Source: a virus
IMG/VR virus record: IMGVR_UViG_3300042691_027445
Span: 1 to 22,118 of that record
Reading direction: 5' to 3' (one strand)
Length of the DNA stretch: 22,118 nt
Positions 2,791 to 22,118 of this stretch are shown here, one piece after another; the stretch's first letter is position 1; every line of letters starts with the position of its first letter. Under the pieces are notes generated by a model that searched no databases, was not told the DNA's origin, and saw only the letters and a program-made list of their open reading frames with translations. The translations under genes were made by a program, and so were the position numbers.

Positions 2791-4650
2791 ATGGATGAAT
2801 CGCAAAAGATTTTGTCTGACATTACTGTCTACATGAAATACGCAAAGTTTGTTCCCGAACTCAAAAGAAGAGAAACTTGGGAAGAACTCGTAACAAGAAA
2901 CATGAACATGCACATCAAGAAATACCCAAAACTTGAAAGTGAAATTAGAGAAGTGTATAAATACGTTTATGATAAAAAAGTATTACCTTCTATGAGATCA
3001 ATGCAGTTTGGTGGTAAACCAATTGAAATTAGTCCAAACAGGATCTACAATTGTGCTTACTTACCGATTGATTCTTTAGATAGTTTTTCTGAGGCGATGT
3101 TTTTACTTCTTGGTGGAACCGGAGTTGGATATTCGGTTCAAAAACATCACGTTGACCAACTTCCTGAAATTAGAAAACCAAATTCAAACAGAAAGAGAAG
3201 ATTCTTAATTGGTGATTCTATTGAAGGATGGGCAGACGCAATTAAAGTGTTATTCAAATCTTATTTTGGAGAACAACTCTCAACTCCTGAGTTTGATTTT
3301 TCAGACATCAGACCAAAAGGTGCTCAACTTGTTACATCCGGTGGTAAAGCTCCCGGTCCCCAACCTCTTAAAGATTGTATCCACAAACTTCAAAGTATGT
3401 TAGATGCAAAACAAGATGGTGAGAAGTTGGAAACAATTGAGGTTCACGATATGGTTTGTCATATTGCCGACGCAGTCCTTGCTGGTGGTATCAGAAGAGC
3501 CGCTCTCATCTCCTTATTCAGTGCTGACGATCAAGAAATGATTTCTTGTAAATCAGGATCTTGGTGGGAAAACAATCCACAAAGAGGTAGAGCAAACAAC
3601 TCGGCAGTTCTTTTAAGACACAAGATTACAAAAGAATTCTTCTTGGATCTTTGGAAAAGAGTTGAGGCTTCAGGAGCAGGAGAACCCGGAATCTATTTCA
3701 CAAATGATAAAGATTGGGGAACTAACCCTTGTTGTGAAATTGCACTCAGACCTAATCAGTTCTGTAATCTTTGTGAGGTTAATGTTTCTGATATTGAATC
3801 TCAAGAAGATCTTAACAACAGAGTTAAAGCGGCGGCATTTATCGGAACACTCCAAGCAGGGTATACTGATTTCCATTACTTAAGAGACATTTGGAAAAGA
3901 ACAACTGAAAAAGATGCACTTATCGGTGTATCTATGACAGGTATTGGATCTGGTGTTGTATTGGGTTATAATATGAAAGAAGCTGCAAAATGTGTTAAAG
4001 AAGAAAACGCAAGAGTTGCTGACCTTATCGGAATCAATAGATCTGCAAGAACAACAACTGTAAAACCTGCAGGAACAACATCTTTAACTCTTGGAACTTC
4101 ATCCGGTATTCACGCTTGGCACAATGATTATTATATCAGAAGAGTTCGTGTAGGTAAAAATGAATCCATTTATACCTATTTGAATGTTAATCACCCTGAA
4201 CTTGTTGAAGATGAATACTTCAGACCACATGACACAGCGGTCATCTCCGTTCCACAAAAAGCACCTGAAGGGGCTATTTTGAGAACAGAAAGTCCATTCC
4301 AACTTCTTGAGAGAGTTAAGAAAATTACTCAAGAGTGGGTTAGACCAGGACACAGAAAAGGAGAAAATACTCACAATGTATCCGCAACAATCAGTTTGAA
4401 AGCTGAAGATTGGGAACTAGCTGGTGAGTGGATGTGGGAGAATCGTGAGTTTTACAATGGTTTATCAGTATTACCTTACGATGGCGGTTCTTATATCCAA
4501 GCACCTTTTGAAGATTGTGATAAAGAAACATTTGAAAAAATGTATAAAGCACTACACTCAATTGATCTAAGTAAGGTTGTTGAGATCACAGACGAAACTG
4601 ACTTAAGTGGTGAACTTGCATGTGCCGGAGGACAATGTGAAATTAAATAA
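2791..4650 (+). CDS. nrdJ: Adenosylcobalamin-dependent ribonucleoside-triphosphate reductase (class II)
   Basis: This enzyme reduces ribonucleotides to deoxyribonucleotides using a B12-derived radical, so the phage can make dNTPs with or without oxygen. All five cysteines known from the Lactobacillus leichmannii enzyme (119, 408, 419, 731, 736) have matches here. Cys88 lies in RIYNCAY. The thiyl-radical Cys314 is in TNPCCEI, with the catalytic Glu at 316, and Cys325 is exactly 11 residues later in FCNLCEVN. The C-terminal shuttle pair is Cys611 and Cys616 in CAGGQCEIK. Other family blocks are SMRSMQFGG, LLLGGTGVGYSVQ, SGGKAPGPQPL and TTTVKPAGTTSLTLG. At 619 residues it is about 120 shorter than the 739-residue reference; about 63 of the missing residues fall between the first substrate Cys and the thiyl Cys, where the reference enzyme carries its effector-binding insertion. 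It has more G+C than the tail genes. Confidence 0.95.
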   Translation: MDESQKILSDITVYMKYAKFVPELKRRETWEELVTRNMNMHIKKYPKLESEIREVYKYVYDKKVLPSMRSMQFGGKPIEISPNRIYNCAYLPIDSLDSFSEAMFLLLGGTGVGYSVQKHHVDQLPEIRKPNSNRKRRFLIGDSIEGWADAIKVLFKSYFGEQLSTPEFDFSDIRPKGAQLVTSGGKAPGPQPLKDCIHKLQSMLDAKQDGEKLETIEVHDMVCHIADAVLAGGIRRAALISLFSADDQEMISCKSGSWWENNPQRGRANNSAVLLRHKITKEFFLDLWKRVEASGAGEPGIYFTNDKDWGTNPCCEIALRPNQFCNLCEVNVSDIESQEDLNNRVKAAAFIGTLQAGYTDFHYLRDIWKRTTEKDALIGVSMTGIGSGVVLGYNMKEAAKCVKEENARVADLIGINRSARTTTVKPAGTTSLTLGTSSGIHAWHNDYYIRRVRVGKNESIYTYLNVNHPELVEDEYFRPHDTAVISVPQKAPEGAILRTESPFQLLERVKKITQEWVRPGHRKGENTHNVSATISLKAEDWELAGEWMWENREFYNGLSVLPYDGGSYIQAPFEDCDKETFEKMYKALHSIDLSKVVEITDETDLSGELACAGGQCEIK

Positions 4651-4861: not shown

Positions 4862-5231
4862 TATTTGTAAAAACATTATTGACTTCATAAGACAGAGTGA
4901 TGAGGTTGAGAAAGATAATATTGAAAGGATATCCGATATATTGAATAATATATCTAATGTATTGAATGATACTGCGGAAAAATTGTTAAATGATGTATAT
5001 CCACACGATAATTGTGTGGTTATGCAAAGGTTATCCAAAGATTTACATTCAAATTTATTGGGTTATTTACCGAAAGAGGATATTGATATATTATATAATT
5101 CTCTTATGGAATCATCTATGGTGGAAAAAGAATTTGCGTTAAGAAAAGAACTTGATACGATACCATCAATTGAAAGGGCAGCCGGAGAATTTAAAGCAAT
5201 GTCAATTCTAATAAAATTGAGAAATACTTAA
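4842..5231 (+). CDS. Hypothetical helical protein, 129 aa, upstream of gp25-like gene
   Basis: I do not recognise this protein with confidence. It is 129 residues, almost entirely predicted helical, acidic in its first 50 residues (SDEVEKDNIERISDILNNIS) and without membrane segments. A central VYPHDNC motif is followed by amphipathic helices, and the C-terminal part is charged (EKEFALRKELD). Helical domains with a PHxxC-like turn occur in some uncharacterised bacterial proteins, but the likeness is weak and from memory. The start overlaps the end of the DUF5522-like gene by 20 bases in another frame, which suggests coupling. In T4 the recombination mediator gene uvsY lies just upstream of gene 25; this protein has a similar place and length, but I see no UvsY sequence signature. 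Confidence 0.75.
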   Translation: MISTVIDICKNIIDFIRQSDEVEKDNIERISDILNNISNVLNDTAEKLLNDVYPHDNCVVMQRLSKDLHSNLLGYLPKEDIDILYNSLMESSMVEKEFALRKELDTIPSIERAAGEFKAMSILIKLRNT

Positions 5232-5261
5232 TCAAAAAAATAGAATTGAATATTTATCATT

Positions 5262-5723
5262 ATGGCTAATGGTAGAACATTTGGTATTGCGTTTCCTTTT
5301 AATGATTCACCCGAAGGTAAATATTTAAAATTAACCCAAACGAGTGATGATGAAATTAGATCTAATCTAATACATTTATTATTAACAAGAAAAGGATCAA
5401 GATATTTTTTACCGGATTTCGGGACAAGATTATATGAGTTTATTTTTGAACCTTTAGATAGTCCGACATTTAATAATATTGAATCTGATATTAGAGATGC
5501 GTGTGAAAAATATATTCCAAATTTGAGAATTACCGACATTTCAATTACCGCAGCATCAAGCGAAGAAGAAACAATTTCAGTAACAACTGAAGGAAATACA
5601 ATAAACAGAGAATTTTCTATGCCAAATCAAAGTCAAATTGAATATACGGCAAAGGTTAGAATTGAATATACCGTAACAGATAGTGTTTTCGGTAGTAAAG
5701 ATTTTGTTATTATTAATATTTAA
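5262..5723 (+). CDS. 25: Baseplate wedge protein, gp25 / GPW family
   Basis: This is a small conserved protein of the inner contractile baseplate, homologous to T4 gp25 and P2 gpW, which joins the wedge to the tail tube/sheath base. The 153 residues slightly exceed T4 gp25 (132). The opening ANGRTFGIAFPF and the central segment LLLTRKGSRYFLPDFGTRLY (39-58), followed by EFIFEP, are the family signature, with the Glu after the FGTRLY turn present. The C-terminal third (100-153) is a beta-rich Thr/Glu extension ending in a paired IEYTV repeat. The gene begins the structural block, 30 bases after the preceding stop. The next gene follows four bases after its stop and encodes the usual partner, a gp6-like wedge protein. 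Confidence 0.92.
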   Translation: MANGRTFGIAFPFNDSPEGKYLKLTQTSDDEIRSNLIHLLLTRKGSRYFLPDFGTRLYEFIFEPLDSPTFNNIESDIRDACEKYIPNLRITDISITAASSEEETISVTTEGNTINREFSMPNQSQIEYTAKVRIEYTVTDSVFGSKDFVIINI

Positions 5724-5727
5724 TAGT

Positions 5728-7569
5728 ATGGCAGAAAAAAGAATATCATATACAACTAGAGATTTCCAATCAATAAGAACGGAATTAATTAATTTTGTTA
5801 AAATTTATTATCCGGATCTAGTTGATAATTTTAATGATGCCTCGGTTTTTTCTGTTTTTTTGGATTTAAATGCTGCGGTTTCTGACAATCTTCATTTCCA
5901 TATTGATAGGAGTATTCAGGAAACTGTTTTACAATATGCTCAGCAAAAATCTTCAATATTCAACATCGCAAGAACATATGGGTTGAAATTACCCGGACAA
6001 AGACCTTCGGTTACGTTGGTTGATTTTTCAATAACCGTTCCGGTATTTGGGGATAAAGATGATGAAAGATATGAAGGTATTTTAAGGAGAGGAAGTCAAG
6101 TTTTGGGTGCGGGAAATGTATTTGAAACTGTCTATGATGTTGATTTTACATCACCTTATGATGCGAAAGGGTTTCCAAATAGGTTGAAAATACCAAATTT
6201 TAATGCTAACAATATCTTGGTTAACTATACCATAGTTAAAAGAGAGTTGGTGGTTAATGGTGTGACAAAAGTTTTTAAACAATCAGTTTTACCTTCTGAT
6301 GTTAGACCATTTTATGAGTTATTTTTACCTGAAAAAAATGTTTTAGGTATTACTTCAGTTATACAAAAAGACGGAACAAATTATGCTAACGTACCAACCG
6401 CTCAAGAATTTTTGTCCAATGATGGGAGGTGGTATGAAGTTGATGCTTTGGCTCAAGATAAGGTTTTCATTGAAGATCCCACTAAAAAATCTGATGATCC
6501 GGGTATAAAGGTAGGTAGATATATTACAACTAATGATAGATTTATAACTGAATTTACGCCGGAAGGATTCTTAAAGATGACTTTCGGTGGTGGAAATACT
6601 TCAGCGGAAGATCAACTTAGGGAATTTGCAAGATCAGGTGTTAATGTTCAACCTATGCAATCTTATTTGAATAATTTTTCATTGGGTGGAACATTAAGAC
6701 CAAACACTACTTTATTTATTCAATATAGAGTTGGTGGTGGGTTGGCAACTAACATTGGAGTTAATGTTTTAAATCAGATTGGAACTGTTGATTTTTTTGT
6801 AAACGGACCTTCACAAGATATTAATACTTCGGTTATTAATTCTTTGACTTGTAATAATGTAACTGCGGCTATTGGAGGTGCGGGATTACCAACCTTAGAA
6901 GAAGTCAGAAACTTTGTTTCCTTCAACTTTGCTGCTCAGAATCGTGCGGTCACAATTAATGATTATGAGGCATTGATTAGAAAAATGCCGGCTCAATTTG
7001 GAGGACCAGCAAAAGTGGCTGTGGTTGAAGAAGATAATAAAGTTAAAATAAAAATTTTAAGTTATGACACGTCTGGGTCTTTAACTCAAATAGTTTCCAA
7101 TACTCTGATTTCAAACATTGCAGAATATTTATCTAACTATAGAATGTTGAATGATTATATATCGGTTGAAACTGCTGAAGTTATAGATTTATCTATTGAA
7201 ATTTCAGTTGTTTTGGATTCAAGTCAAAATCAAGGTTCGATTATAACTTCAATAATAAATAAAATTACAAGTTATTTTAATCCATTATCAAGACAAATGG
7301 GTCAAAATATTAACACGTCAGATCTTAATAGGTTGATTCAAGATGAAAACGGGGTATTATCCATAACTTCTCTACAGTTCTTTAATAATGTTGGGGGTCA
7401 ATACTCGTCTTCAGAAACTTCAATGGCTTATAAAAATAGTGAAACAAGAGAAATTGATATTGTTGATGGAACTATTTTTGCATTACCTAATCAAATTTAT
7501 CAGATTAGATTTCCTAATAAAGATATAAGAGTAAGAGTTAAGAATTTCCAAACTGTTACTATATCATAA
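5728..7569 (+). CDS. 6: Baseplate wedge protein, gp6 / baseplate J-like
   Basis: This is a core wedge subunit; in T4 gp6 dimers form the continuous ring around the hub. I take the ATG at 5728 (613 residues). The frame is open back to 5683, but that would overlap the gp25-like gene and add a hydrophobic stretch with no family likeness. The N-terminal part carries SYTTRDFQSIRTELINFVK and ETVLQYAQQKSSIFNIARTY, typical of gp6-like proteins. The baseplate-J core is at 383-414: GGAGLPTLEEVRNF, then AAQNRAVTINDYE. A C-terminal alpha/beta region with LSIEISVVLDSS and LNRLIQDENGV follows, as in gp6. T4 gp6 has 660 residues, so the size fits. The adjacent gp25-like gene confirms the assignment. Confidence 0.9.
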   Translation: MAEKRISYTTRDFQSIRTELINFVKIYYPDLVDNFNDASVFSVFLDLNAAVSDNLHFHIDRSIQETVLQYAQQKSSIFNIARTYGLKLPGQRPSVTLVDFSITVPVFGDKDDERYEGILRRGSQVLGAGNVFETVYDVDFTSPYDAKGFPNRLKIPNFNANNILVNYTIVKRELVVNGVTKVFKQSVLPSDVRPFYELFLPEKNVLGITSVIQKDGTNYANVPTAQEFLSNDGRWYEVDALAQDKVFIEDPTKKSDDPGIKVGRYITTNDRFITEFTPEGFLKMTFGGGNTSAEDQLREFARSGVNVQPMQSYLNNFSLGGTLRPNTTLFIQYRVGGGLATNIGVNVLNQIGTVDFFVNGPSQDINTSVINSLTCNNVTAAIGGAGLPTLEEVRNFVSFNFAAQNRAVTINDYEALIRKMPAQFGGPAKVAVVEEDNKVKIKILSYDTSGSLTQIVSNTLISNIAEYLSNYRMLNDYISVETAEVIDLSIEISVVLDSSQNQGSIITSIINKITSYFNPLSRQMGQNINTSDLNRLIQDENGVLSITSLQFFNNVGGQYSSSETSMAYKNSETREIDIVDGTIFALPNQIYQIRFPNKDIRVRVKNFQTVTIS

Positions 7570-7590
7570 TAATTTATTTATTCCTATTAT

Positions 7591-7626
7591 AGTTTATGTT
7601 TAGTTAAACTGCCTGTAAAAAACGGG
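7591..7626 (+). other. Two weak stems in the longest intergenic gap
   Basis: The 88-base gap (7570-7657) between the gp6-like gene and the giant virion gene is the largest in the window. It holds AGTTTA/TAAACT (7591-7596 with 7605-7610) and a 5-bp stem CCTGT/ACGGG with one G-T pair (7612-7616 with 7622-7626, loop AAAAA). Neither is followed by a T run, so termination is unlikely; they could be leader structure for the following gene. No small gene was found in the gap. Confidence 0.2.
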
Positions 7627-7634
7627 GGATTAAC

Positions 7635-7650
7635 TATTTATAAATTAAAA
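7635..7650 (+). promoter_or_regulatory. TATTTATAAAT element before the giant virion gene
   Basis: TATTTATAAATTAAAA lies just upstream of the ATG at 7658. It contains TATAAAT, seven of eight bases of the T4 late promoter TATAAATA, and aligns closely with the element before 16952 (CTATTTATtAAaTaAA), at nearly the same distance from the start. It is preceded by the longest gap of the structural block, a sensible place for a promoter. No -35-like or Bacteroidota-type -33/-7 pair is convincing. Confidence 0.3.
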
Positions 7651-7657
7651 GATTTCA

Positions 7658-10600
7658 ATGGGTAAATCATTCAGAATAAGAACTACACCGGGTGAAGACA
7701 AAAATATCGTAATACAAGTTGACCAAGATTTTGAACAATTAGAAATCCTTTCTCTTAAAATAAGACAACAGGATGTTTATGATAGAATGTGTGCTGATTA
7801 TGGAGTGGTTGCGGGTAGGATTTTTTCAAATAACGGTTATGGTATTCCAAATGCTAAAGTATCTATTTTTGTACCCGTTTCTGATGAAGACGCTCAAAAC
7901 CCTATCATCTCCTCAATTTATCCTTACAAAACTTTAGAACAAACTAACGAAGATGGTTATAGGTTTAATTTATTACCTTATTTACCATCATATCCAGGGC
8001 ACGTCCCAACAGGAACATTCCCATCAAGATTAGATTCGGTTGTTAATCAAACGGCAATTGAAATTTACGACAAATATTATAAGTATACTGTTACTACTAA
8101 CGAAAGTGGAGACTATATGATATTCAATGTGCCTGTTGGAGATCAAACTATAGTAATGAATGTTGATCTATCTGATATAGGTCCATTTTCGTTATCACCT
8201 CAAGATTTAATAAGAATGGGGATGGCGACCGAGGAACAATTTGATGGTGTTAAATTTAGGTCATCACCTAATTTTTATGAACTTCCTCAAATTATTGTTA
8301 TCAATAAAACAATTGACATAGTTCCTTTTTGGGGTGAACCTGAAATATGTAGAATAGGTATAACTAGAACCGATTTTGACTTAAGCGCTGAGGCAAATAT
8401 TAATATTCAACCTACGGCCATTTTTATGGGTTCTATAATGAGTACTAATGAAAAGGCGTCTTTGAGGGCTAATGGGGCTGCTCAGAAATCAACAGGTGAG
8501 TTGTGTAGACTAATAACCGGACCTGGTGAAATTTTAGGAATAAGTCAAACAATTTTTCAGGATGAAAATGGATTACCGGTTCTTAGACGTGCTCAATTAC
8601 CAAATGGGGGAAAATTAATAGATGCTAATGGAACTTGGTTATTTGAAGTCCCTATGAATAGGGATTATGTATTCACAAATGAGTTTGGACAACAAGTATT
8701 ATCAGACGATCCAAATATTGGGATTCCAACTAGGGCTAAATTAAGATTTAAAATAAAATGGCAACAATCTAAAAATTTAAATGAAGATTATAAAGTTGGA
8801 TACTATTTGGTTCCAAACATAAGAGAAAGAGGTTGGGGTGTGGGAGTTGACCCTACTATAATACCTGGAACTCCACAGTGGACAGATTTTCAAAGATCCT
8901 ATGGTTTTAGTTTAGATTGGAGTGGGTATACTTCGGGTAATGTTGGGTTAACTAATAGAGACATTCGTGTGGCAATTGATTGTGAAGACACCTTTTATGA
9001 GTTTGAATATAATAAAGTATATACTGTTGCCGGATTGGTTGACAACTACAAAATAACACAGGCGTCCTCAAGCATAATACAAAATTTATTTTTTAACGTA
9101 AATCACAGAGAAAGATTTGTTGGTATAAAGAATATTGAAGATGATACTTGCCAAGACACCACAAATAGGTATCCGGTGAATGATGGGGTATTTAGAGCTA
9201 CTTTAATTTGGAGAATATTTGATTTTTTACTAATAATCGTAGGGATTTTAGGATTGTTCATTCTAATTGTTTATTCAATTGTTGCTTATATTTGGAATTT
9301 CTTAAGAGATCCTCTTTTGGCTCTTTTAATAGCTTGGTGTGTTTATCAGGCACTTTCGGCGGCCCTTGGTGCGATTTTTGCTGCAGTACCTTCAGTTGGT
9401 CTTGGTGCGGTTATTTGGTGGGCTGGTGTTGTATGGAATATACTTGTAGGTCTTTTCTGGTTAGCTTTGGGATATCTAATTTATGAAACGTTTAAAAAAT
9501 TAGAAGATTTTAGATTTGGACCCATTAGGTTACCTATGCTAACATATCCTGATTGTGATAGTTGTGATTGTAATGGCGGTTCTGAAACGGGTGGATCAAC
9601 ATTAGGAGGTCAAACAGAACCATCGACATCAGTTTCAAAACCAACTGGGGGGGGTATGTTAGTACCTGAAAAATCATTACTCCAATTTTTGGAAGATACT
9701 GAAATCTCCCAACCGTATTTTTCAGGGTTTACCGGATGTACAACATGGAATAGTGATGATTGGTATCAAATAATACCGTTGATAGAGGGTATAGATGCAA
9801 ATGCGAGGAGAAGAAAAATGGGATATAGGGTGTCACCTAAAGTTATTCAAAAGGGAGATACGATAAATAATGGTACTATAAACTCCAACTCACAGATATT
9901 TTATTATAATAATAACTTACCTTTAGGTGAAACTATTAATTTATATAATTTAAAGGCAAATTATTATTACAATCAAAAAAATTCTTGTAATAGTATTGGT
10001 GTAAGGGTAGAACCTAATTTAAATTCTAATGGTTTTGTTCACACCGATAATGTTTTGGTTTTTATAAGTGATTTAAAATCTGATTTTATAAAATCAGGTA
10101 GTATGATGACTTTTGTAGATCCTAAATTATCTCAAGATAAAAATGATATTCTAAAACCCACACTAACTCTTTCAGGAATTACAGGAACAACAAATGTTTT
10201 ATCACAGGTTTCTATAAAATTTGCAGATCCCCAAGCACCGAATCAAGGTAATTTTCAGACATTATATCAAATACCTTCAACGGCAACCACAAATAGTAGT
10301 AAATATATTTACAAGTCAGACATTGAATATTATCAAGTTATAACGGCTTATACGTATTCGGACTTTTTGAAACTTGTACCAAATGGGGCATCAACAACCT
10401 CCTTAGGTTACATATTGGCTAGCGGTGGGACAAAAATCACAAAAATTGAAAAATTAACTTCCGGTTGTGATTGTACATCACCCGGATTTACATCGGGATT
10501 TACTTATTGTTCTACGGCTTCAAATGGTACTGGGTTTACTCAGGTTAGTGTCTTTGAAAAATGGGGTGAGAACGTGGCTAACATACCATATAATCTTCAT

Positions 10601-13231
10601 ATTCCTCCTGATTCTTATGTTATTTTTTTAATGAGAGGCGTAGATCCTTATTCGCCTAAGTATGAAATGGAAATCTCTTTAGATAGATTATTAGGGTATA
10701 ATACTAACTATTTGAATGGGGCACAATCATGGACACATAAAATTAGGACTAATTTAAGATTAAACATACCAATCCAAAATCCTGATGACATTAATAATGT
10801 TTATGATCTTTTACCGGTGCATAATAATATACCTAGTAATGGATTAATAGATACCTCAAGTGATCAATACTTATTTTACCCCTCATATTTTTTTACACCT
10901 GGAACGGATTTTACTCCTTTCAATACAACATTACATAAATTTTACTCGGCTTTAGATTTTACAAAGGCTAATTACTTGGTAAAAAAAGATGATACTCAAA
11001 CCAAACTTAGTGATTATGCTATATTTTCTAATTTTTATAATAGTAATGATTCATTTGTGAGTAATAGTGTAAATTGTACTGGAAATACACAACCTGTAAA
11101 AAATGCTTTTTGGGAAAATAACCCTAATAATACTTACGATAAATACAATAACCAAGATTCTGTCGCAGGAGGATCTTTAATGTTCAAGGGTATTTTTGAT
11201 GTTGAGAGGGATTGTTTTGTTGTGCACCCTAGTTACAAATGTTGCGGTCCTACCGGTACAACAACTGCAGGTACTGGTGCAGTGACCGCTTGCACTGTAC
11301 CTATTTATTTAAATGCGGATCAGGCTAAGGATAAATGTAAGGGTGGTTGGCAAGACTCTTTATATTTTAGTTTTATATATGAAACCGGAACTACACTTAA
11401 TTTTAATGATCCAAATAGAATTGTGATGAGAACTGATAGATTACCATCAAGTTCAACTTTGGGAGGATTTTCAACTGGCACGACCGCACCTATAGGTTCT
11501 GGGGTTTACGATGGGGTTAACACAACACTATTCCAACAAAATTCTGAATTTGCATTTTATTTAATTAGTGATTCTGGGATACTTTCGATAGGAGGAGGAA
11601 TACCTAATACTCAATACGGTGCGGGTGGTACTATTTCGGGTTCAAATCAATTTTACGGTAGTGTATTTAGTACATTTGACTGTGATGGTATGGTTGAGTT
11701 AGAGTGTTACGAAAACTCAGGATTAAACTTTAATGTAAAACCCGGGTGTTCAACCGGTGATATTGTTGAAAATGGGTGTTATGTTTTTGTTAAAGAACCT
11801 TTGACTGGGTTGTTTAGACCTAAGGGAAATACTGATTTAGACAATTGGTCGGAATACATTATGAGGTATAGATTTTTTTATGGGTTATGTCAAGGTGTAT
11901 TTTCCACGGTTTTTATAAACAATTGGGTTAATGGAAATCTTTTCACGTTTTCTTTTAAAGTGGATACGTTTTACAATTCTTTGAATGAAGTTTCTAATAG
12001 AGTTTATCCTAAGGATGTTATAATATTACAAGAAGATAGTAACAATTTTTATTATAGGTCAACCCCTACAACATATTCAAGTCCTAGTTCAATAACTCCC
12101 ATTTTTCTTGGATCCACAGGAGGAACAGAAAACAACGGACAAAACGCAATGAATTTAAAATATCCTACAACAATTCTTAATATGGGGCCTAGGGATGATA
12201 TTCAAAAATTTTTGAATTTGAATTCTAATTATGATGGATTTTATTTGAATCAGGTTCCACAAACAACATATAGTGATCTATCTGATATGATTAATTTCTT
12301 TTCGATTATTAGGATGTTAGATTTTACATTTTGGGGGGGAATTGTGGGAAGAAATTTACTTACAAAATTATTTAACAACAGAGGAGATTTTAAAAATTCG
12401 GCTAAAGTTGATGCAGATTTTGCTCAGTCGGCGTCTGTAAATTCCGAACTTGGGGTGATACCATTTGACTCTGAATACTATGCTAGTAGTGGTCCGAACC
12501 CCTCATTAATATCTGCCGAAGGTTATCAGGAACCAGGAGAACCTGCTCCGGAAAGAATGATGGGGGTATATTATTATAGCCCATTGGATGATATACAATT
12601 AAGAGATTTAGTATCACCTATGAGAATAATTAGATATAAAAATTCTCAACCTAATAATTTTCAATACCAAAACTTGTCAAAAAGATCTCAAATTATTCCG
12701 AACTACAAATGGAGATTAGATTCAGGGGGGTCTACAATTTTTGGAACTCAAAGAAATAATTGGGCGACTAATTCGTCAATTATTAGGAGAGGGTATAGAT
12801 ACCAAGATTTAGATAGAAAATCTAGTGGTTATTATAGTGATGGTGATTTAACTAATGACACATTCTATAGAGGGTATATTCATGCATATGAATTTGGTCC
12901 TAAAACTCAAACAAGTAATACACCTCCTATGTTAATTTTTGGAAATTCATATACAATTTTGGAACACCAACCAGGTGATAGTTTTATAAATGTAGGAGCA
13001 CCTAATAATAATCCGGGAACAACTTTCATATATAATGGAAATTTACCTACTTGGAATAATGGTTCTAAATTGTTTTATGAAGGTAAATTTTTATATAATC
13101 CCAAACAACCAACTCCGGCATTTTTAGTTGGAGCACCTTGGCATTTTTATTTTGGTGTTAGAAAAGGAGCAACCGCAATAAATAGGTTTTTTACGAAATA
13201 TTTAGGTATAGAAGAATTAAATGAGCAATAG
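7658..13231 (+). CDS. Giant baseplate-cluster protein with Ig-like N-terminus and internal hydrophobic segment, 1857 aa
   Basis: This is probably a large virion protein, the biggest in the window; its exact role is unknown. Residues 49-170 resemble a carboxypeptidase-regulatory-like Ig fold, with GRIFSNNGYGIPNAKVSIF, TNEDGYRF and later TTNESGDYMIFNVPVGD. A second ANGTWLFEVPMNRDY strand pair occurs near 325. Residues 520-609 are strikingly hydrophobic, Trp- and Gly-rich, and fit three or four membrane-spanning helices. They are followed by a Cys cluster CDSCDC (633-638) and a Gly/Ser/Thr linker containing an eight-G tract (9647-9654). The remaining 1190 residues are Asn/Gly/Thr/Tyr-rich and beta-like, with further Cys pairs (937/939, 1195/1196). 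Its place after gp6 suggests a baseplate or fibre-network part; T4 gp7 (1032 aa) is the nearest T4 protein by position, but the gpI/gp7-like fold lies in a different gene here. It overlaps the next gene by 11 bases. Confidence 0.85.
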   Translation: MGKSFRIRTTPGEDKNIVIQVDQDFEQLEILSLKIRQQDVYDRMCADYGVVAGRIFSNNGYGIPNAKVSIFVPVSDEDAQNPIISSIYPYKTLEQTNEDGYRFNLLPYLPSYPGHVPTGTFPSRLDSVVNQTAIEIYDKYYKYTVTTNESGDYMIFNVPVGDQTIVMNVDLSDIGPFSLSPQDLIRMGMATEEQFDGVKFRSSPNFYELPQIIVINKTIDIVPFWGEPEICRIGITRTDFDLSAEANINIQPTAIFMGSIMSTNEKASLRANGAAQKSTGELCRLITGPGEILGISQTIFQDENGLPVLRRAQLPNGGKLIDANGTWLFEVPMNRDYVFTNEFGQQVLSDDPNIGIPTRAKLRFKIKWQQSKNLNEDYKVGYYLVPNIRERGWGVGVDPTIIPGTPQWTDFQRSYGFSLDWSGYTSGNVGLTNRDIRVAIDCEDTFYEFEYNKVYTVAGLVDNYKITQASSSIIQNLFFNVNHRERFVGIKNIEDDTCQDTTNRYPVNDGVFRATLIWRIFDFLLIIVGILGLFILIVYSIVAYIWNFLRDPLLALLIAWCVYQALSAALGAIFAAVPSVGLGAVIWWAGVVWNILVGLFWLALGYLIYETFKKLEDFRFGPIRLPMLTYPDCDSCDCNGGSETGGSTLGGQTEPSTSVSKPTGGGMLVPEKSLLQFLEDTEISQPYFSGFTGCTTWNSDDWYQIIPLIEGIDANARRRKMGYRVSPKVIQKGDTINNGTINSNSQIFYYNNNLPLGETINLYNLKANYYYNQKNSCNSIGVRVEPNLNSNGFVHTDNVLVFISDLKSDFIKSGSMMTFVDPKLSQDKNDILKPTLTLSGITGTTNVLSQVSIKFADPQAPNQGNFQTLYQIPSTATTNSSKYIYKSDIEYYQVITAYTYSDFLKLVPNGASTTSLGYILASGGTKITKIEKLTSGCDCTSPGFTSGFTYCSTASNGTGFTQVSVFEKWGENVANIPYNLHIPPDSYVIFLMRGVDPYSPKYEMEISLDRLLGYNTNYLNGAQSWTHKIRTNLRLNIPIQNPDDINNVYDLLPVHNNIPSNGLIDTSSDQYLFYPSYFFTPGTDFTPFNTTLHKFYSALDFTKANYLVKKDDTQTKLSDYAIFSNFYNSNDSFVSNSVNCTGNTQPVKNAFWENNPNNTYDKYNNQDSVAGGSLMFKGIFDVERDCFVVHPSYKCCGPTGTTTAGTGAVTACTVPIYLNADQAKDKCKGGWQDSLYFSFIYETGTTLNFNDPNRIVMRTDRLPSSSTLGGFSTGTTAPIGSGVYDGVNTTLFQQNSEFAFYLISDSGILSIGGGIPNTQYGAGGTISGSNQFYGSVFSTFDCDGMVELECYENSGLNFNVKPGCSTGDIVENGCYVFVKEPLTGLFRPKGNTDLDNWSEYIMRYRFFYGLCQGVFSTVFINNWVNGNLFTFSFKVDTFYNSLNEVSNRVYPKDVIILQEDSNNFYYRSTPTTYSSPSSITPIFLGSTGGTENNGQNAMNLKYPTTILNMGPRDDIQKFLNLNSNYDGFYLNQVPQTTYSDLSDMINFFSIIRMLDFTFWGGIVGRNLLTKLFNNRGDFKNSAKVDADFAQSASVNSELGVIPFDSEYYASSGPNPSLISAEGYQEPGEPAPERMMGVYYYSPLDDIQLRDLVSPMRIIRYKNSQPNNFQYQNLSKRSQIIPNYKWRLDSGGSTIFGTQRNNWATNSSIIRRGYRYQDLDRKSSGYYSDGDLTNDTFYRGYIHAYEFGPKTQTSNTPPMLIFGNSYTILEHQPGDSFINVGAPNNNPGTTFIYNGNLPTWNNGSKLFYEGKFLYNPKQPTPAFLVGAPWHFYFGVRKGATAINRFFTKYLGIEELNEQ
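9647..9654 (+). repeat. Eight-G homopolymer tract inside the giant virion gene
   Basis: GGGGGGGG encodes most of a Gly triplet (664-666) in the linker just after the hydrophobic segment and Cys cluster, and is followed by T and an in-frame ATG at 9656. Gain of one G would end the protein after seven further codons and loss of one G after four, so the tract could act as a length-switching site. It could equally be neutral, or a sequencing weak point. Confidence 0.6.
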
Positions 13232-14933: not shown

Positions 14934-15732
14934 GTTTAAAATATTATTTTCTGAGGTTGTAGAAAAAGGTATCAATATCCCAATTGAAATCAATTGGGAT
15001 TTTATGGGTAGAGGTATGGCGATTGATGAATACCAAGAAAAAACAAGTAGGGAGGTTTTAAATCTTGATAAAGATTTTGAGGTTGCTAGATTTGCACATT
15101 CTGATAAAACAGATCCTAATAACCCAACGAAAACAGATATAAATTATGAGTTTTATTTTGTGAAAACCGGTGTAACTGCATCAGATATTCCAAACGCACA
15201 ATGGGGGTTTGATTATAGAACACAAGGATTTTCACCAAAAGAAATATATTATTTTACAAACCCATTTAAAAAGTCATTTTTCAAGTTAGATTTTTATGAC
15301 TCACCATTTCAAAGTGGTCAAACAAATTATGTGACAATTATTTTACCTACGCAGCAAGGTTTAACGACTAATGCCAACGTGGGATTTCAAACTAATGTTG
15401 ATATAAAAATACCTAAATTCAAATTAGATTTTGTTGGAGATAAAGAAGGGTTTTTTATTTATTGGTTAAAGAATAGGGATTTTTTGAATATCCCAACTTT
15501 ATATATGACGGCTAAATTTTTTGATGCTAAATCCGGAATATTCATTAAAATGATGAATAGAGAACAAAAAACTTTGCCTTCTTTTTTCAATTTTAAACCT
15601 GAAGATTATTTTTATTACAAAGTAAAATTGGACTATTCTGATTTCACATATAAAGTTTATGATGTTCAGACTAATCAAGTCGTGGGGTATGACACAAACC
15701 CAATAAAATGGTATGAATACGTTAATCCATAA
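14920..15732 (+). CDS. Putative structural protein, 270 aa
   Basis: The family is not recognised. I chose the ATG at 14920, which overlaps the preceding stop region by 14 bases; a TTG 18 bases upstream would add only six residues. The 270 residues start with SVNKFKILFSEVVEKGINIP and continue with several beta strands rich in Phe, Tyr and Lys. Landmarks are WDFMGRGMAIDEYQEK near residue 25, FDYRTQGFSPKEIYYFTN near 105 and the closing NPIKWYEYVNP. There are no Cys residues, membrane segments or repeats. The gene ends with TAATG, where its stop shares bases with the next start, implying coupled translation with the PKD-containing protein. A virion role is inferred from its place inside the baseplate cluster. 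Confidence 0.78.
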   Translation: MSVNKFKILFSEVVEKGINIPIEINWDFMGRGMAIDEYQEKTSREVLNLDKDFEVARFAHSDKTDPNNPTKTDINYEFYFVKTGVTASDIPNAQWGFDYRTQGFSPKEIYYFTNPFKKSFFKLDFYDSPFQSGQTNYVTIILPTQQGLTTNANVGFQTNVDIKIPKFKLDFVGDKEGFFIYWLKNRDFLNIPTLYMTAKFFDAKSGIFIKMMNREQKTLPSFFNFKPEDYFYYKVKLDYSDFTYKVYDVQTNQVVGYDTNPIKWYEYVNP

Positions 15733-16907
15733 TGAGTGAAGATAAATACTATATTAAGATTTCTCCGGAGAACATATTAAGTGATTTAGTTCAAGTCCCT
15801 TATACCGCTTCTTCATTTGTTATAACCGCCATAACAGGTAATTGTTGTTTCATAACAACAATACCAAAAGGGATTGGGTTTGTAACTGGCACAACCGGAT
15901 ATTATGTTCCGATGCAAAAATTATTGAGTGGTGGAACAAACGGAGCTTCTACTCTAACCGGTTTAACAATACCAATTTTATTGAGACAAAATAACGTTGA
16001 TATTGGTTATTATTCGGTTTTTGATGGAGCAATTCTTCAAAAAGATGTGGTGACAAACTTTGTATTTTCTGCAAAAACAAATCAACCATATAGATATTAT
16101 GTTTATAATACTTCTGAAAAGAATCTGAAAAACTTTCTTTCTTTATCATCATATAAGATAGATTGGGGGGATGGATCATCGGTAGATGTGTTTAATTTTG
16201 CACCAAATTCTGTTTTCAAGGACTATCCTAGTAATGTCCCTAAAAGTTATAAAATAACATTAATTCAAAAAACACCTTGGGGAACTAACACAATCACTAA
16301 AACAGTTGTAGTCCCGTATACTAAAATATCAATTCCGGATCCGTTTGGAAATGCGACCTTTACTCCTAATATTGGATCATGGTCTGCAACACCGGTATCC
16401 TATGATTATATTTTTACAGGAGACTCAATAAATTTAATTTCAAGTCAAACTTCAGATAATTATACTTCAATTCCACTTATTATAAGTGGATTTACTCAAT
16501 CTAGAATTGAAGAGTTAAGGCAATATGGGAAAATTCCTTTTATTACTAACAAATGCATACAAAAAGAAGGGGATAATTGTTGGGGTGTTATAACCTCAGA
16601 TGTGTCAATACCAAGTTCATTTACTGCGTATACTATACAAGGGGTTAATTATATGGATTTTGATGATGGTTTTACCGTTTATATGTTCAATAGTAGCGGA
16701 TTAACATCTAACTGGATGGTTCAATCTGCTATGACGAAAAATGAAGCATTATTAAATGTTGTTTCAGATCCTGAAGTTCAATCCGACATTTTCATAGAAA
16801 GAGGAAAAAATAGTGCGTTGGAAAGAGTTGAGAGAATTGGTGAAATAGACAATATTGGGGATCTTGAAAATTACGGATATAAGTTTTTTAATTTAGAAAC
16901 TCAATAA
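15732..16907 (+). CDS. Putative structural protein with PKD-like domain, 391 aa
   Basis: This is a virion protein candidate. The central part holds a PKD-like Ig fold: YKIDWGDGSS (141-150) carries the classic WGDG signature at 145-148, followed by strands ending in TITKTVVVPY. PKD folds are common in extracellular Bacteroidota proteins and in phage fibres. The last 50 residues change character to charged and helical, with DPEVQSDIFIERGKNSALER and the continuation VERIGEIDNIGDLENYGYKFF, which looks like a compact conserved anchoring tail. A Cys pair (NCCF near 37-38) and later KCIQKEGDNCW are visible. Translation is coupled to the preceding gene by TAATG. A 44-base A/T-only-like gap follows, the second largest in the structural block. 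The function is inferred as a peripheral baseplate or decoration part. Confidence 0.8.
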   Translation: MSEDKYYIKISPENILSDLVQVPYTASSFVITAITGNCCFITTIPKGIGFVTGTTGYYVPMQKLLSGGTNGASTLTGLTIPILLRQNNVDIGYYSVFDGAILQKDVVTNFVFSAKTNQPYRYYVYNTSEKNLKNFLSLSSYKIDWGDGSSVDVFNFAPNSVFKDYPSNVPKSYKITLIQKTPWGTNTITKTVVVPYTKISIPDPFGNATFTPNIGSWSATPVSYDYIFTGDSINLISSQTSDNYTSIPLIISGFTQSRIEELRQYGKIPFITNKCIQKEGDNCWGVITSDVSIPSSFTAYTIQGVNYMDFDDGFTVYMFNSSGLTSNWMVQSAMTKNEALLNVVSDPEVQSDIFIERGKNSALERVERIGEIDNIGDLENYGYKFFNLETQ

Positions 16908-16951: not shown

Positions 16952-17857
16952 ATGGCAGTTGGAACATATGGAACCGTTAGACCGGCGGATGTCTCACCGG
17001 AAGATGTTGAGATAATACTAAATTACACACCATCTAGAGATGTGACAGACGATTTTGTTTTGAAGAAACTAAATTCGGCTAATATATTAAGACCTTATTT
17101 CAATAATAATAATACGGGAGGTAGACCTGTTGAAATTTTAGGTGGGTTATATAACTTGAAACTGCCGCAAGAAGAATTTAATAGATTGGGTATATACACA
17201 CTTTATGTGAGACCTGCACAAATAAGAACTCCAATAACGGATTGTGGTGTTTTATCGGCATTACCTAACGTTAAAGGGTTGGTAATTAATTTAGATAATG
17301 TTCCAAGTGATGCAAGAAATAAATTTGTTGCACAAGGGTTAGTTGGTTTCAGAATAGAATATCTTAATGATAATGGAACAAAAATTCCTAATTTCTTTAG
17401 AATTGTTACATCTAATTTCTTTTGTGAACCTGTTTTACAGAATTTAACTAATACTGCTCAAAAGGCTATAAGATATAGATATGTTGATGGTGAAACTAAT
17501 TTGATGTTTTTAACTTTATCACCATCATCATCACCAACAAACAAACCAAATGCAACCCCTTTTATAGGACAACCAAATCAAAATATAATTTTAACAAATA
17601 CATTTTTTAATCCAATCACTATTGATATAGAATTGGTGGATCAAGACATTTCAACTCTTGCAATTGCTCTTTATGGTAATCAAACTAAGTCAATTGATGA
17701 TGGTATATACACTATATACGATTCAAGTAATAATATATATAAACAATACAATCTATATGAAATCAGAAATGAATTCAATTCTCTTCTCTATGAAGTTAGA
17801 CAAGATAGAGGTGATAATATAGATTTCAGTAAAAACTTTTCAACCATAACGCAATAA
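16952..17857 (+). CDS. Putative structural protein, 301 aa
   Basis: No family is recognised. It is 301 residues and soluble-looking, opening with AVGTYGTVRPADVSPEDVEI. Next come a short charged helix, a Gly/Asn linker (NNNNTGGRPVEILGG) and beta-rich segments (GIYTLYVRPAQIRTPI, LVGFRIEYLNDNGTKIPNFF). A Ser/Pro stretch SPSSSPTNKPNATP sits near 192-205, probably a flexible link to a final strand/helix module (DDGIYTIYDSSNNIY; YEIRNEFNSLLYEVRQDRGD). It follows a 44-base A/T-rich gap and ends in TAATG shared with the start of the 981-aa wedge protein, so it is likely made together with that protein. Its place directly before the gpI/gp7-like protein suggests a wedge-associated part, but this is inference. 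Confidence 0.8.
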   Translation: MAVGTYGTVRPADVSPEDVEIILNYTPSRDVTDDFVLKKLNSANILRPYFNNNNTGGRPVEILGGLYNLKLPQEEFNRLGIYTLYVRPAQIRTPITDCGVLSALPNVKGLVINLDNVPSDARNKFVAQGLVGFRIEYLNDNGTKIPNFFRIVTSNFFCEPVLQNLTNTAQKAIRYRYVDGETNLMFLTLSPSSSPTNKPNATPFIGQPNQNIILTNTFFNPITIDIELVDQDISTLAIALYGNQTKSIDDGIYTIYDSSNNIYKQYNLYEIRNEFNSLLYEVRQDRGDNIDFSKNFSTITQ

Positions 17858-20802
17858 TGGCTAGAAAATTTTTTAGATATCCTCCTAGACCTTCAAGCGG
17901 TGCTGGTACATTCTCCGATAACATAGTTGGTTTTCAACTTGTTGATGGAGGAGGTTTGACACAAGGTAATTTTGCGTTTACAACAGGACTTGTTGAGAAG
18001 GTTAATAGAAACTTTAGTATTGGTTCTTTTTCTGAACCAATAAATTTGGATGCATTACAAATCTATAACATAAATGAATCCCGAGAAATTGTTGCTAAGG
18101 AATTCAGAGTGTATCCTAATTTTGACTTAAGTGAAATATCAAATTTTAACTTATATGGTTCTTTATCTAAAAGAATTTCTACATCAATTGAGAAAATAAT
18201 AAATTATTTTCCGGCGTCAATAGAGGTTTATAACCTTAAACCTACGTTTTTAACTGGTTATACTGCGTATAATATTGTATATGATCCTATAGAAAAAACA
18301 ACAACCTTCGAGATTAATGTTCAAGACATAAGCAATCCTTTAGGGGTAGATTTTTCTAAAAATTCAACTAGAAATCTATCTTTGAAGGAAAATAAGGTTT
18401 CACCATTAAGAAATTTGACGGTTGAGTATGAAAAATACTCTTTATATGTAGGAGAACATGAATTCAAATTATTATATTTAATACCATCTGATAGTTTATT
18501 CAATGGAAAATTAAGTTTAATAGTTGATGGAAACGCTTTTAGTGGAGAAACTATTTCTGCGGTTGATTATATTATAAGACCTGATGATTTCTATGCTGAT
18601 AAAGCGTTCATTGAACAATTTGATGAGGTAGAACAGTTTTTATTAAACAGATTAGTTATACCTAAATATACTGCGGTTTTTAATGTTCCTAAAACCGCTG
18701 AAGACGGGACAAATTTCACCGACAGCCAAAAAATAACTTGGCCTTTGGACGGTATTTGGAACTTAGATATAAGAACTCCTAGCTTTGATTTTTATCTCAG
18801 TCAGTTAAATGAAATAACAAGTTCTTTTGATAGTTTCAGAACAAATTTGATTGCCAGGTTTTTGACAACGGAGTCATTCAAAGAATTTGATACTGAAGAA
18901 AGAAAAGTTCAGAAAATTTTAGAATTATATGGTAGAAGTTTTGATGAAGTAAAAAAATTCATAGATGGTTTATCACATATGACATCTGTAAACTATACCA
19001 TCAAAAATGATATACCTTCACAATTGTTAAAAAATCTTTCTCAAACTCTTGGTTGGAAAATTAATATTTCACCAATATCGAATGAAGATTTTCTTTCATC
19101 TGTTTTTGGTAATACAAATAAAATTGAATACCCGGGATTTTCAAGGGCAAACACACCCACCGAATTAAACTACCAATTTTATAGAAATTTAATATTAAAT
19201 TCCGCATATCTTTTCAAATCAAAAGGAACAAGAAAATCAATTGAATTCTTATTAAGATTGGTTGGCGCTCCTGAAGCGATAGTTGAATTTAATGAACATA
19301 TCTATATTGCTGGACAAAGAATCAATATGGGTGAATTTGAAAAAAAATTTTTGGATTTATCTGATGGTATATATATCGATGAAATTCCAGCGTTAAATAC
19401 AGATCCATCCGGGATATATAAATTCAACGGAAATATCTACACTGCTTTTACTACACAACAAATATATCTTGCGGTTGATTCTGAAAGGGATGATTTTCCC
19501 GTAGATGATGAAGGTTATCCAAAAGCTCCAAGAGATACTGAGGATTATTTTTTCCAAAAAGGTGCGGGATGGTTTGAATTGGTTAAAGATCATCAAAGTC
19601 CTCAACAAGTTAATACTACCGCAAGCGTTTTTACCGGTCAAAACTTTAATATACAAACTCAATTTGAACCTTTTTCTTATGGACAAAAATACTTGGATAG
19701 GTTTAGAAATTTTCCATACATATCTGAAGGGTTCAAGTTGATAAGAACACCTGACAACAGAAAAAGTTGGCCGGAGACTGATGTAAATTTAAGGGTTGGA
19801 AACGGATCGGCAAAATTCAACGCTTACTATTTCACTCAAAACGAAAAATTTGTTTTGAATGTTAAAAACGTTGACATATTTATGAACCCATCACAAGGAT
19901 TGGCTTACGACGTATGGTATATGTCAAATAGATTCAATTATCCAATACCAAGTAGTGGATTATCCACGCCTTATCCAAAACCTGACGGAGTAGATTGGAC
20001 TGTAATAAACCCACAACCAAACAAAAAAACATTTTTTGAATTTGCTCAAACGTTTTGGAGAAATATGATTAATGTTAGAAATAGACAATTTATTTCTGAC
20101 GGAAAAACGGGAGGATACCCAACATTACAATCAATATATTTTAATTACTTAAATTCAAAACAGAATGTAAATATACCTAATGATAATTTTACGTATAAGT
20201 CAATGATAGATTACGTAAATGGTTTAGGGACTTATTGGATTAGATTGGTGGAACAAATGATTCCAGCAACAACAATTTGGATGGGTGGTGTTAAATACGA
20301 AAACTCAATTTTTCACAGACAAAAATTTGTTTATAGATTACAAAGAGGTTGTCCGGTTGTTCCTGTTCCTTGTGATCCTTGTTTCTTTACAACATCATTA
20401 TTTGATTATAACTGTTTTGATGAAACAGTTTCTTGTGATTTATATCCACAAGATCCGTTTAGTGTTGTTCTATCTTCAATTATGAACAATTATCAATTAT
20501 CAAATTCTTTAACTTGTAATCTTAATACATTATCAACAAAGTGGTATGTGGATTTAAGATTAGATGGTCAAACAATATTAAAAGAATTGATTTATAATGG
20601 TTCAGGTCTTTCTGATGTTCCAACAAATCAAATATGGAAAACTTCATTAGAGAATTATTTACCACAACTTTTGAACCAAGGAATATATTATTCAATAAGT
20701 GGGGACACATTAAATATTTATAATTCTGGATGTGATAGTTATCTTAATAATAAAAATTTAAAAATAAACGTGGGAGTTGATTTCTCAGTAAGCTGTAGTT
20801 AA
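17857..20802 (+). CDS. Baseplate wedge protein with tail protein I / T4 gp7-like segment, 981 aa
   Basis: This is probably the third core wedge subunit, equivalent to P2 gpI or T4 gp7. Residues about 315-475 show the tail-protein-I layout: helices around a DEVKKFIDGL segment, then IPSQLLKNLSQTLGWKI, then YQFYRNLILNSAYLFKSKGT (439-458), closing with RKSIEFLLRLVGAPEA. The ordered NLILNSAYLFKSKGT...G pattern is the family mark. Residues 1-310 are an added beta-rich N-terminal part starting MARKFFRYPPRPSSGAG. Residues 480-830 are another mixed insertion with many aromatic residues. After the Arg/Gln-rich block RQKFVYRLQRG (near 820-831) comes a Cys-rich C-terminal extension of 150 residues (Cys832, 838 and 841, with more downstream). 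T4 gp7 has 1032 residues, a similar size. Its stop overlaps the SprB-repeat gene as TAATG. Confidence 0.8.
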   Translation: MARKFFRYPPRPSSGAGTFSDNIVGFQLVDGGGLTQGNFAFTTGLVEKVNRNFSIGSFSEPINLDALQIYNINESREIVAKEFRVYPNFDLSEISNFNLYGSLSKRISTSIEKIINYFPASIEVYNLKPTFLTGYTAYNIVYDPIEKTTTFEINVQDISNPLGVDFSKNSTRNLSLKENKVSPLRNLTVEYEKYSLYVGEHEFKLLYLIPSDSLFNGKLSLIVDGNAFSGETISAVDYIIRPDDFYADKAFIEQFDEVEQFLLNRLVIPKYTAVFNVPKTAEDGTNFTDSQKITWPLDGIWNLDIRTPSFDFYLSQLNEITSSFDSFRTNLIARFLTTESFKEFDTEERKVQKILELYGRSFDEVKKFIDGLSHMTSVNYTIKNDIPSQLLKNLSQTLGWKINISPISNEDFLSSVFGNTNKIEYPGFSRANTPTELNYQFYRNLILNSAYLFKSKGTRKSIEFLLRLVGAPEAIVEFNEHIYIAGQRINMGEFEKKFLDLSDGIYIDEIPALNTDPSGIYKFNGNIYTAFTTQQIYLAVDSERDDFPVDDEGYPKAPRDTEDYFFQKGAGWFELVKDHQSPQQVNTTASVFTGQNFNIQTQFEPFSYGQKYLDRFRNFPYISEGFKLIRTPDNRKSWPETDVNLRVGNGSAKFNAYYFTQNEKFVLNVKNVDIFMNPSQGLAYDVWYMSNRFNYPIPSSGLSTPYPKPDGVDWTVINPQPNKKTFFEFAQTFWRNMINVRNRQFISDGKTGGYPTLQSIYFNYLNSKQNVNIPNDNFTYKSMIDYVNGLGTYWIRLVEQMIPATTIWMGGVKYENSIFHRQKFVYRLQRGCPVVPVPCDPCFFTTSLFDYNCFDETVSCDLYPQDPFSVVLSSIMNNYQLSNSLTCNLNTLSTKWYVDLRLDGQTILKELIYNGSGLSDVPTNQIWKTSLENYLPQLLNQGIYYSISGDTLNIYNSGCDSYLNNKNLKINVGVDFSVSCS

Positions 20803-22118
20803 TGTCATTTAGTGTAAATATATTCATAACCGGAGATTGCTCCAATAACTCATCAGGTGTAATAAATGTTGTCCCAACTGGGGGAACTACTCCTTATACT
20901 TTAAATGTCTCTTCACCAAGTTTTACTTCCATAACTTCAAATACAACATTTACCCTAACAAATTTATCACCATCAATTTTTAATTTTACGGTTGTTGACA
21001 ATTCATTACCTACAGGATTGGCGGGATTTAATTTTATATTATCTTCAGGTTTTTGTGTTAATCAACAATCTTTTAATAGTACTTGTGGACAAAATAATGG
21101 AGGTTTATCGGTAAGTGCCAATTCAATTAGTGCTCCAATTACATATAATTTGTATAATTCATTTGGATTTATACAAACAATTAGTTCAAATAACACTCAA
21201 GTTCTTTTTACGAATTTATCACCTGATTTATATTATGTGGATGTTATAGATTATTCAAATTGTACGGCCAGAACGGCTTCTTGTATTATAAAAGATTCAG
21301 GTAATTTGGATTTCGATTTATTTTCAATAAATAATTCTAATTGTTCAAATATTCCATCCGGAAAAATATATGTTTATAATGAAATCGGTACTCCACCATT
21401 CACATATCTTTGGTCGCCAACAAATGAAACCACAAAATCCATAAGTGGTTTATCTGCGGGGGCTTATTCAGTTACCGTAACGGATGGGTTAGGTTGTTCA
21501 ATACAAAAATCGGTTACAATTACTGACGTTCCTTTAGTTGGTATTACAGGTTTTATTACTCAAAAGTCGCCAGATTGTTGGCAATCAAACGGGGTTTTAC
21601 AGATTTTTATTACAGGTGGAACGCCACCATATCTATATCAACTAAACGATTATCCACCTAAAATATCATTATCAACTTCAGAAACTTTTTCAGGTTTATC
21701 AGCGGGTGTTTATAATGTGCAAGTGACAGATGCGGGTCTTTGTTTTACAAGTGGATCGACTACTTTACAGACACCTGATAAATTTGATGTTTTATCGGTT
21801 AATGTAACACCATCTACGTGTAATAATAATTCGGGTCAAATTGAAATAATTTTAAATGGTGGTGCGACCCCCTACAAGTTTGAATTAACTGACTCTTCTG
21901 GAACGACAACAATAATTTCCGGAATAAGCCCCGTGGCTCTGTTCCAAAATCTCAAGACAGGTGTATATCATATAAAAATAACAAATCAAAGTAATTGTTT
22001 ATATGAAACAGATGTTGTTATAAATAATATTAACAAATTTGAAATCGTAACCTCAGTTAATAATACAAGTTGTGGAAATTCAAATGGGAGTGTGACAATA
22101 TATGTGAATTCCGCCGGA
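20802..22118 (+). CDS. SprB-repeat protein, putative receptor-binding / fibre protein (3'-truncated by window edge)
   Basis: The frame is open from the ATG at 20802 to the last base (439 codons, no stop), starting inside the previous stop (TAATG). The visible part is five full tandem repeats and the start of a sixth. Each opens with a Cys followed by an Asn/Ser/Gly-rich turn and a strand ending in a Pro-Tyr or Pro-Phe motif; Cys codons fall at residues 13, 95, 181, 259, 340 and 424, spacing 78-86. Repeat 3 gives GTPPFTYLWSP and GLSAGAYSVTVTDGLGCS; repeat 4 gives GGTPPYLYQL and GLSAGVYNVQVTDAGLC. This is the SprB repeat pattern of Bacteroidota cell-surface adhesins. No signal peptide is present, which fits a virion protein rather than a secreted adhesin. 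A tail-tip or fibre role in host binding is inferred from position. Confidence 0.85.
   Translation, partial: MSFSVNIFITGDCSNNSSGVINVVPTGGTTPYTLNVSSPSFTSITSNTTFTLTNLSPSIFNFTVVDNSLPTGLAGFNFILSSGFCVNQQSFNSTCGQNNGGLSVSANSISAPITYNLYNSFGFIQTISSNNTQVLFTNLSPDLYYVDVIDYSNCTARTASCIIKDSGNLDFDLFSINNSNCSNIPSGKIYVYNEIGTPPFTYLWSPTNETTKSISGLSAGAYSVTVTDGLGCSIQKSVTITDVPLVGITGFITQKSPDCWQSNGVLQIFITGGTPPYLYQLNDYPPKISLSTSETFSGLSAGVYNVQVTDAGLCFTSGSTTLQTPDKFDVLSVNVTPSTCNNNSGQIEIILNGGATPYKFELTDSSGTTTIISGISPVALFQNLKTGVYHIKITNQSNCLYETDVVINNINKFEIVTSVNNTSCGNSNGSVTIYVNSAG
20838..22118 (+). repeat. Tandem SprB-type protein repeats (about 82 codons each)
   Basis: Six repeat starts are marked by Cys codons at 20838, 21084, 21342, 21576, 21819 and 22071, giving units of 246, 258, 234, 243 and 252 bases. 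The units are diverged at DNA level, so this is a protein-level repeat and not a recent tandem duplication. The last unit is cut by the window edge, and the array may continue. Confidence 0.85.

Follow-up and report, generated by a model that had tools for sequence, protein, structure and literature searches.

What is an array of SprB-type repeats, a type familiar chiefly from adhesive surface proteins of gliding Bacteroidota, doing in the baseplate operon of a phage, and what would its product contribute to the particle? The question arises from the window—the whole 22,118 bp stretch of an IMG/VR virus record analyzed here—whose final open reading frame encodes such repeats and is still open at the contig end (Table 1). 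The product of this gene is probably a structural tail arm, in which the SprB repeats would form a stalk, a pair of twin domains would dock that stalk on the baseplate, and variable tips would be optional additions. Below, we set out the evidence for the array, its conservation and its architecture, and weigh alternative roles for the protein where the relevant results are given.

A preliminary description, made from the sequence alone, had read the final frame as SprB repeats within a phage tail operon, coupled to the baseplate gene before it, and each of these points was borne out. Against the Pfam SprB family (PF13573), the whole protein scored 65.7 bits (E=2.8e-18) over four stretches, passing the gathering cut-off of 28 bits, and a search at the DNA level recovered five places, two of them individually above the cut-off, with none of the 14 control genomes positive. 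The repeats measure 78–85 residues each, R1 to R5 being complete and R6 represented by its first 26 residues; a Cys start and the motifs GGTPPY and GLSAGxYxVxVTD are literally found in R3/R4. The TAA stop of the upstream gene overlaps the ATG of the arm gene, and the gp25-type and gp6/gpJ-type genes earlier in the operon indicate the baseplate module of a contractile tail, a context reinforced by conserved synteny and by the phage-type genes downstream in relatives.

Table 1. Positions of the arm gene, its repeats and the neighboring baseplate genes in the window
Feature	Position	Strand	Evidence or remark
SprB-repeat arm protein	20802..22118	+	439 aa read, 3' end past contig; PF13573 E=2.8e-18; homologue at this position in related loci
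Repeat R1, N-terminal, conserved TGDC motif	20802..21053	+	
Repeat R2	21054..21308	+	
Repeat R3 (GLSAGAYSVTVTDGLGC)	21309..21542	+	
Repeat R4 (GGTPPY ... GLSAGVYNVQVTDAGLC)	21543..21785	+	Singly above Pfam cut-off
Repeat R5	21786..22040	+	Singly above Pfam cut-off; internal TIGR04183 (T9SS-CTD) match
Repeat R6, initial 26 residues, rest cut by contig end	22041..22118	+	
TAATG stop/start overlap of wedge and arm genes, translational coupling	20800..20804	+	
Baseplate wedge-type protein, 981 aa, arm partner	17857..20802	+	Conserved synteny; HHalign links to baseplate-region proteins of immuto and Mel-JY01
Wedge protein C-terminal domain (residues 844-981), "twin" paralogue of the post-repeat arm domain	20386..20799	+	HHalign
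gp25-type baseplate wedge protein (context)	5262..5723	+	PF04965 E=6.6e-12
gp6/gpJ-type baseplate wedge protein (context)	5683..7569	+	PF04865 E=7.4e-9; phrog_6 E=8e-23

Other genes of the window are less readily classified. Convincing family matches in Pfam and PHROG were absent for the 1857-, 570-, 276-, 391-, 301- and 981-aa proteins that follow the gp6/gpJ-type gene. The first of these (7658-13231) contains strongly hydrophobic, membrane-like segments at about residues 520–620, a feature found in 41/41 homologues checked, and the 391-aa protein (15732-16907) carries a PKD-like WGDGS motif that was read by eye and had no library match. Upstream of the module, a ribonucleotide reductase-like protein (2791-4650) is 68% identical to a protein of Microcystis phage Mel-JY01 and 62–63% identical to Vibrio and Oceanospirillum phage proteins annotated "recombinase"; since it is far closer to those phages than the baseplate genes are, it has likely been exchanged between phages.

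To place the array in a wider context, we gathered related loci from IMG/VR. A search with the wedge gene product (981 aa) returned 60 viral loci, and a second search with the 1109-aa arm protein of L006, the closest relative in which the gene is complete (86% identity in the wedge, 68% in the common part of the arm), added 15 more, comprising 13 further wedge-bearing contigs, the contig of L006 again (L066) and one locus, L080, with no wedge match. Among the 74 wedge loci in which the contig runs on for 300 bp or more past the wedge gene, a count that includes near-identical contigs, a script found a SprB-type repeat frame directly behind the wedge gene in 73. The remaining case (L067, recruited by the arm protein) was settled by eye: a 723-aa arm frame at 7995-10166 directly follows the wedge gene at 5009-8008, and was missed because the script took the arm frame's end (10163) as the wedge end, probably owing to the domain that both genes have in common (see below). 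PF13573 was matched in all 30 complete relatives at E≤0.001, and the genes behind the arm gene of L006 are fibre-like or conserved phage genes. One of the latter (L006:18970-19950) is a conserved 325-aa gene (DIVFVTAQPDVPYFHWQ...) that occupies the same place in the tail-fibre region of many relatives and belongs to phrog_4417, function unknown. In the downstream fibre region of another relative, we noted a second, separate SprB-repeat protein (L014:16218-17537), which at 28.3 bits lies barely above the cut-off.

Outside these loci, tblastn found no match to the wedge gene in 50,697 phage records, and no named phage was found to carry it. Two scans of 84,980 prokaryote genomes likewise recovered no relative, and thus neither binned contigs nor prophages pointed to a host. 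Shine-Dalgarno motifs are scarce, preceding 19 of 306 genes where 12.5 would be expected by chance (0/24 in Flavobacterium phage immuto and 8/30 in Mel-JY01), a pattern that weakly fits a Bacteroidota host. The SprB array is a real, conserved, phage-borne feature of an uncultured group of large tailed phages, among whose long members is IMGVR_UViG_3300008108_000016 at 157,807 bp.

Because R7, the following domain and any tip of the window's own protein lie past the contig end, their architecture was read from relatives. When aligned, these share seven collinear repeats, about 135 conserved residues (...KxGxxQMLxEGFxDLTSGDTNC...YDISC) and a variable end, with 63 of 73 arrays scoring seven domains. 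What lies beyond the conserved residues differs widely among the 39 distinct closed forms: 12 add no more than 15 residues to the conserved domain, 5 continue for 15–60 residues, and 22 bear tips of at least 60 residues, often behind a Pro/Thr-rich linker. DUF285 forms the tip in 6/30 complete relatives; in L006 it is found in the next gene, not in the arm protein, and tips therefore seem exchangeable between neighboring genes. An AlphaFold model of the arm shows serial beta-sandwich domains (pLDDT mostly 75–92 over residues 1–565) and then a domain of H-E-E-H-E-E-E topology predicted with moderate confidence, the overall pTM of 0.37 making the geometry between domains unreliable. Its top Foldseek match in the PDB was the Aureispira grappling-hook protein GhpA (E=2.5e-18), accompanied by many Ig/Fn3 arrays, and superposition on GhpA (VIA Z 12.2, rmsd 52.6 A over 502 residues) indicates a likeness that is domain-wise only. 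If the fold is as predicted, the seven SprB-type, Ig-like domains may act as a stalk of fixed length, probably elongated, with the optional Pro/Thr linker and tip (DUF285 or other domains) carrying the variable contact with the host—a task that could alternatively fall to the fibre-like proteins encoded just downstream.

How might such a stalk be held on the particle? In HHalign, the conserved domain behind the repeats aligns with the C-terminal domain of its neighbor, the wedge protein, at a probability of 97% (E=8e-11 to 3e-11), whereas all other operon segments tested gave E≥0.003 and eight column shuffles gave E≥0.13. The predicted secondary structures of the two domains agree (helix-strand-strand-helix-strand-strand-strand), and within the fetched loci the domain occurs in wedge and arm genes only, one more weak match lying inside a wedge protein (domain E=1.7). 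Judged from these profiles, the two domains are paralogues, and their paralogy hints at a mode of attachment to the wedge: the alpha/beta domain of the arm, as a duplicate, may pair with its twin. This offers a testable rule for arm anchoring, namely that a duplicated wedge-protein domain could serve as the anchor. A more elaborate scenario, which we regard as quite unlikely, is that a copy of the wedge C-terminal domain was donated to the adjoining SprB-array gene, making the arm a wedge pseudo-subunit that plugs into the baseplate and, being derived from a Bacteroidota adhesin, serves as an exchangeable tip platform that exploits the host adhesion surface.

The wedge protein itself had been labeled gpI/gp7-like, a label that is only partly supported. 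Its assignment to the baseplate is supported by position and by HHalign links to the protein encoded just downstream of the gp6-like gene in immuto and Mel-JY01 (E 5e-6 to 7e-6); the more specific family label, on the other hand, found no match in Pfam, PHROG or PDB sequences. A structural model of the protein, with a mean pLDDT of 44.5, matched no known fold in Foldseek at E≤0.001, and its best VIA Z was 4.7.

The same operon position bears on a different reading, in which the protein is a decoration or whisker—an ornament of the Hoc or fibritin kind, with repeats that attach weakly and reversibly to surface glycans or to the host cell, and which provides no stalk for a tip. SprB-like or Ig-like domains do occur elsewhere in phages, including RB43-type fibritins, whisker and decoration proteins, and huge phages, and some of these match the SprB profile. 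Moreover, the window protein has a weak match to a PHROG annotated "Hoc-like head decoration" (E=3.2e-5), as do 6/30 relatives; profile searches of the PDB recovered 9occ, a neck-whisker protein (E=5e-5), and 5lxk, a decoration protein (E=0.007), and the closed forms that lack a tip would suit an ornament. However, the arm gene lies directly behind a baseplate gene, is coupled to it and has a domain in common with it, and no head or neck genes are nearby in the stretch read. Pfam scans of the window protein and its relatives likewise revealed no Fibritin_C domain, and the gene sits in the baseplate operon, not in a head module. We consider this reading unlikely, and a tail arm with a SprB stalk the better account of the gene's setting.

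Whether the array was taken from a host, and whether its repeats themselves touch the host, are questions raised directly by the preliminary description, which had proposed that the phage recruited a host adhesin module for its fibre or receptor-binding protein. In a search of 72,556 plasmids, all ten matches (10/10, best E=9e-15) came from Bacteroidota, and the top solved fold is a Bacteroidota adhesin. One of the plasmids, Aureispira pAUEb (L084), has its SprB-repeat gene flanked by those for an RHS-core protein and a "tail fiber domain-containing protein", and the repeats it encodes group weakly with those at phage position R3 in the tree. It is plausible, though unproven, that the module came from a host adhesin. 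The comparison of repeat trees with host SprB-like proteins that had been proposed as a check was carried out, and a tree of such short repeats (81 columns) cannot place the origin: its backbone is unresolved, phage repeats interleave with host repeats, and there is no supported nesting of the former in a host clade.

The order of the repeats was more informative. Position-specific HMMs trained without the window's clade matched every one of that clade's 26 repeats to the position it occupies, and in a tree of Bacteroidota, huge-phage and lineage repeats each position fell on one side of a branch, with SH-aLRT values of 98–99 for R1, R2, R3 and R7, 93 for R4, 75 for R5 and 48 for R6. This positional orthology implies that the heptad is older than the divergence of the group, within which wedge identity falls to about 51%; on the evidence of these alignments, the seven-repeat array is ancestral to the group and not a recent capture. 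A lineage-specific recruitment, as originally envisaged, is not supported by an ancestral, positionally orthologous array of domains that other phage virion proteins also carry. Nor is receptor binding by the repeats supported: they are almost constant in number, and the arm, which evolves faster than the wedge (dN/dS about 0.18 versus 0.05, with synonymous sites near saturation), is still under purifying selection, the variable parts being the tips behind the conserved domain. That a recruited gliding adhesin acts as the receptor-binding protein, its SprB repeats contacting the host surface directly, therefore appears distinctly improbable, given an ancestral array of nearly fixed repeat number, with the variability lying in the tips. 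We infer that the tips are better receptor-binding candidates than the repeats.

Proteins built from SprB repeats may also be exported. The preliminary description had stated that the window protein lacks a signal peptide, and by hydropathy it indeed has no signal-peptide-like start: its best 12-residue Kyte-Doolittle value near the N-terminus is 0.97, compared with 2.5–3.1 in 5/6 host or huge-phage SprB proteins examined, and five complete relatives checked by hydropathy alone, as opposed to a dedicated predictor, also have no hydrophobic N-terminal stretch. The accompanying check for a C-terminal type IX secretion (T9SS) signal could be made through complete relatives, the window's C-terminus being outside the contig; in those inspected the last element is the twin domain or a tip, and no T9SS domain occurs at the C-terminus. 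Matches to T9SS C-terminal families within the repeats (Por_Secre_tail in Pfam below the cut-off, TIGR04183 above it) were rejected as secretion signals because of their location, the TIGR04183 match, which lies inside R5, probably stemming from the common Ig-like fold. On the contrary, two huge phages, LR756502 (642 kb; L087:6231-11255) and LR745206 (635 kb; L088:6954-9149), encode SprB-repeat proteins that combine a signal-peptide-like start with a C-terminal CHU_C T9SS signal, and that are apparently made for secretion via the host type IX system, a design opposite to that of the window protein. The idea that the window protein is no virion part but an adhesin or moron produced during infection, secreted and aimed at the host, for which these huge-phage proteins and the above-threshold TIGR04183 match might be cited, is very improbable given the N-terminus, the internal position of that match, the C-termini of complete relatives and the location in a baseplate operon.

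Compared with known systems, the arm proteins carry the same Pfam repeat as Flavobacterium johnsoniae SprB and other SprB-repeat adhesins, and their model most resembles Aureispira GhpA (PDB 9flp and others), but they differ from both in having no signal peptide and no T9SS C-terminal domain, in their place in a phage baseplate operon, and in their length of roughly 700–1400 aa. The Hoc-like PHROGs, RB43-type fibritin (wac), 9occ and 5lxk are likewise Ig-like virion domains with measurable sequence similarity to the arm, yet by name they belong to the head or neck, without coupling to a wedge gene or a seven-SprB array, and RB43-type fibritin has the Fibritin_C domain, unlike the window arm. 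The best match among viral models, A0A6J5LD72 (714 aa), is apparently the same gene, with 33% identity across 718 columns; it is named "SprB repeat [uncultured Caudovirales phage]" in UniProt/BFVD, and our literature search found no published account behind this database name. The cultured phages closest in gp6, immuto (NC_055915, 28%) and Mel-JY01 (PP395634, 26%), have gp25 and gp6 homologues and the wedge-like protein detected by HHalign; in their baseplate modules, we detected no SprB array and no convincing match to the twin domain. A search of the open-access literature turned up no account of such repeats in the tails of phages. The SprB protein has been considered as a candidate receptor for phages, a different relation (PMC13288928).

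The closest described case is that of the crAss-like phages, in which BACON domains, typical of Bacteroidota proteins, form tandem repeats in tail-associated proteins, the array of one lineage having arisen by duplication and being distinct from bacterial copies (PMC6949934). The likeness lies in tandem Bacteroidota-type domains within tail-associated phage proteins; the difference is that here the family is SprB—Pfam scans of the window protein and its relatives contained no BACON match—and that a fixed heptad is followed by a domain common to the adjacent wedge protein. The window arm is thus probably a variation on tail-associated Ig-like arrays, a design already known in other phages, and it would make SprB the second Bacteroidota-type domain after BACON to be used as a tail-associated tandem array, in this case across widespread uncultured large phages. 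What had been described as a host adhesin turned receptor binder is better viewed as an ancestral stalk with swappable tips.
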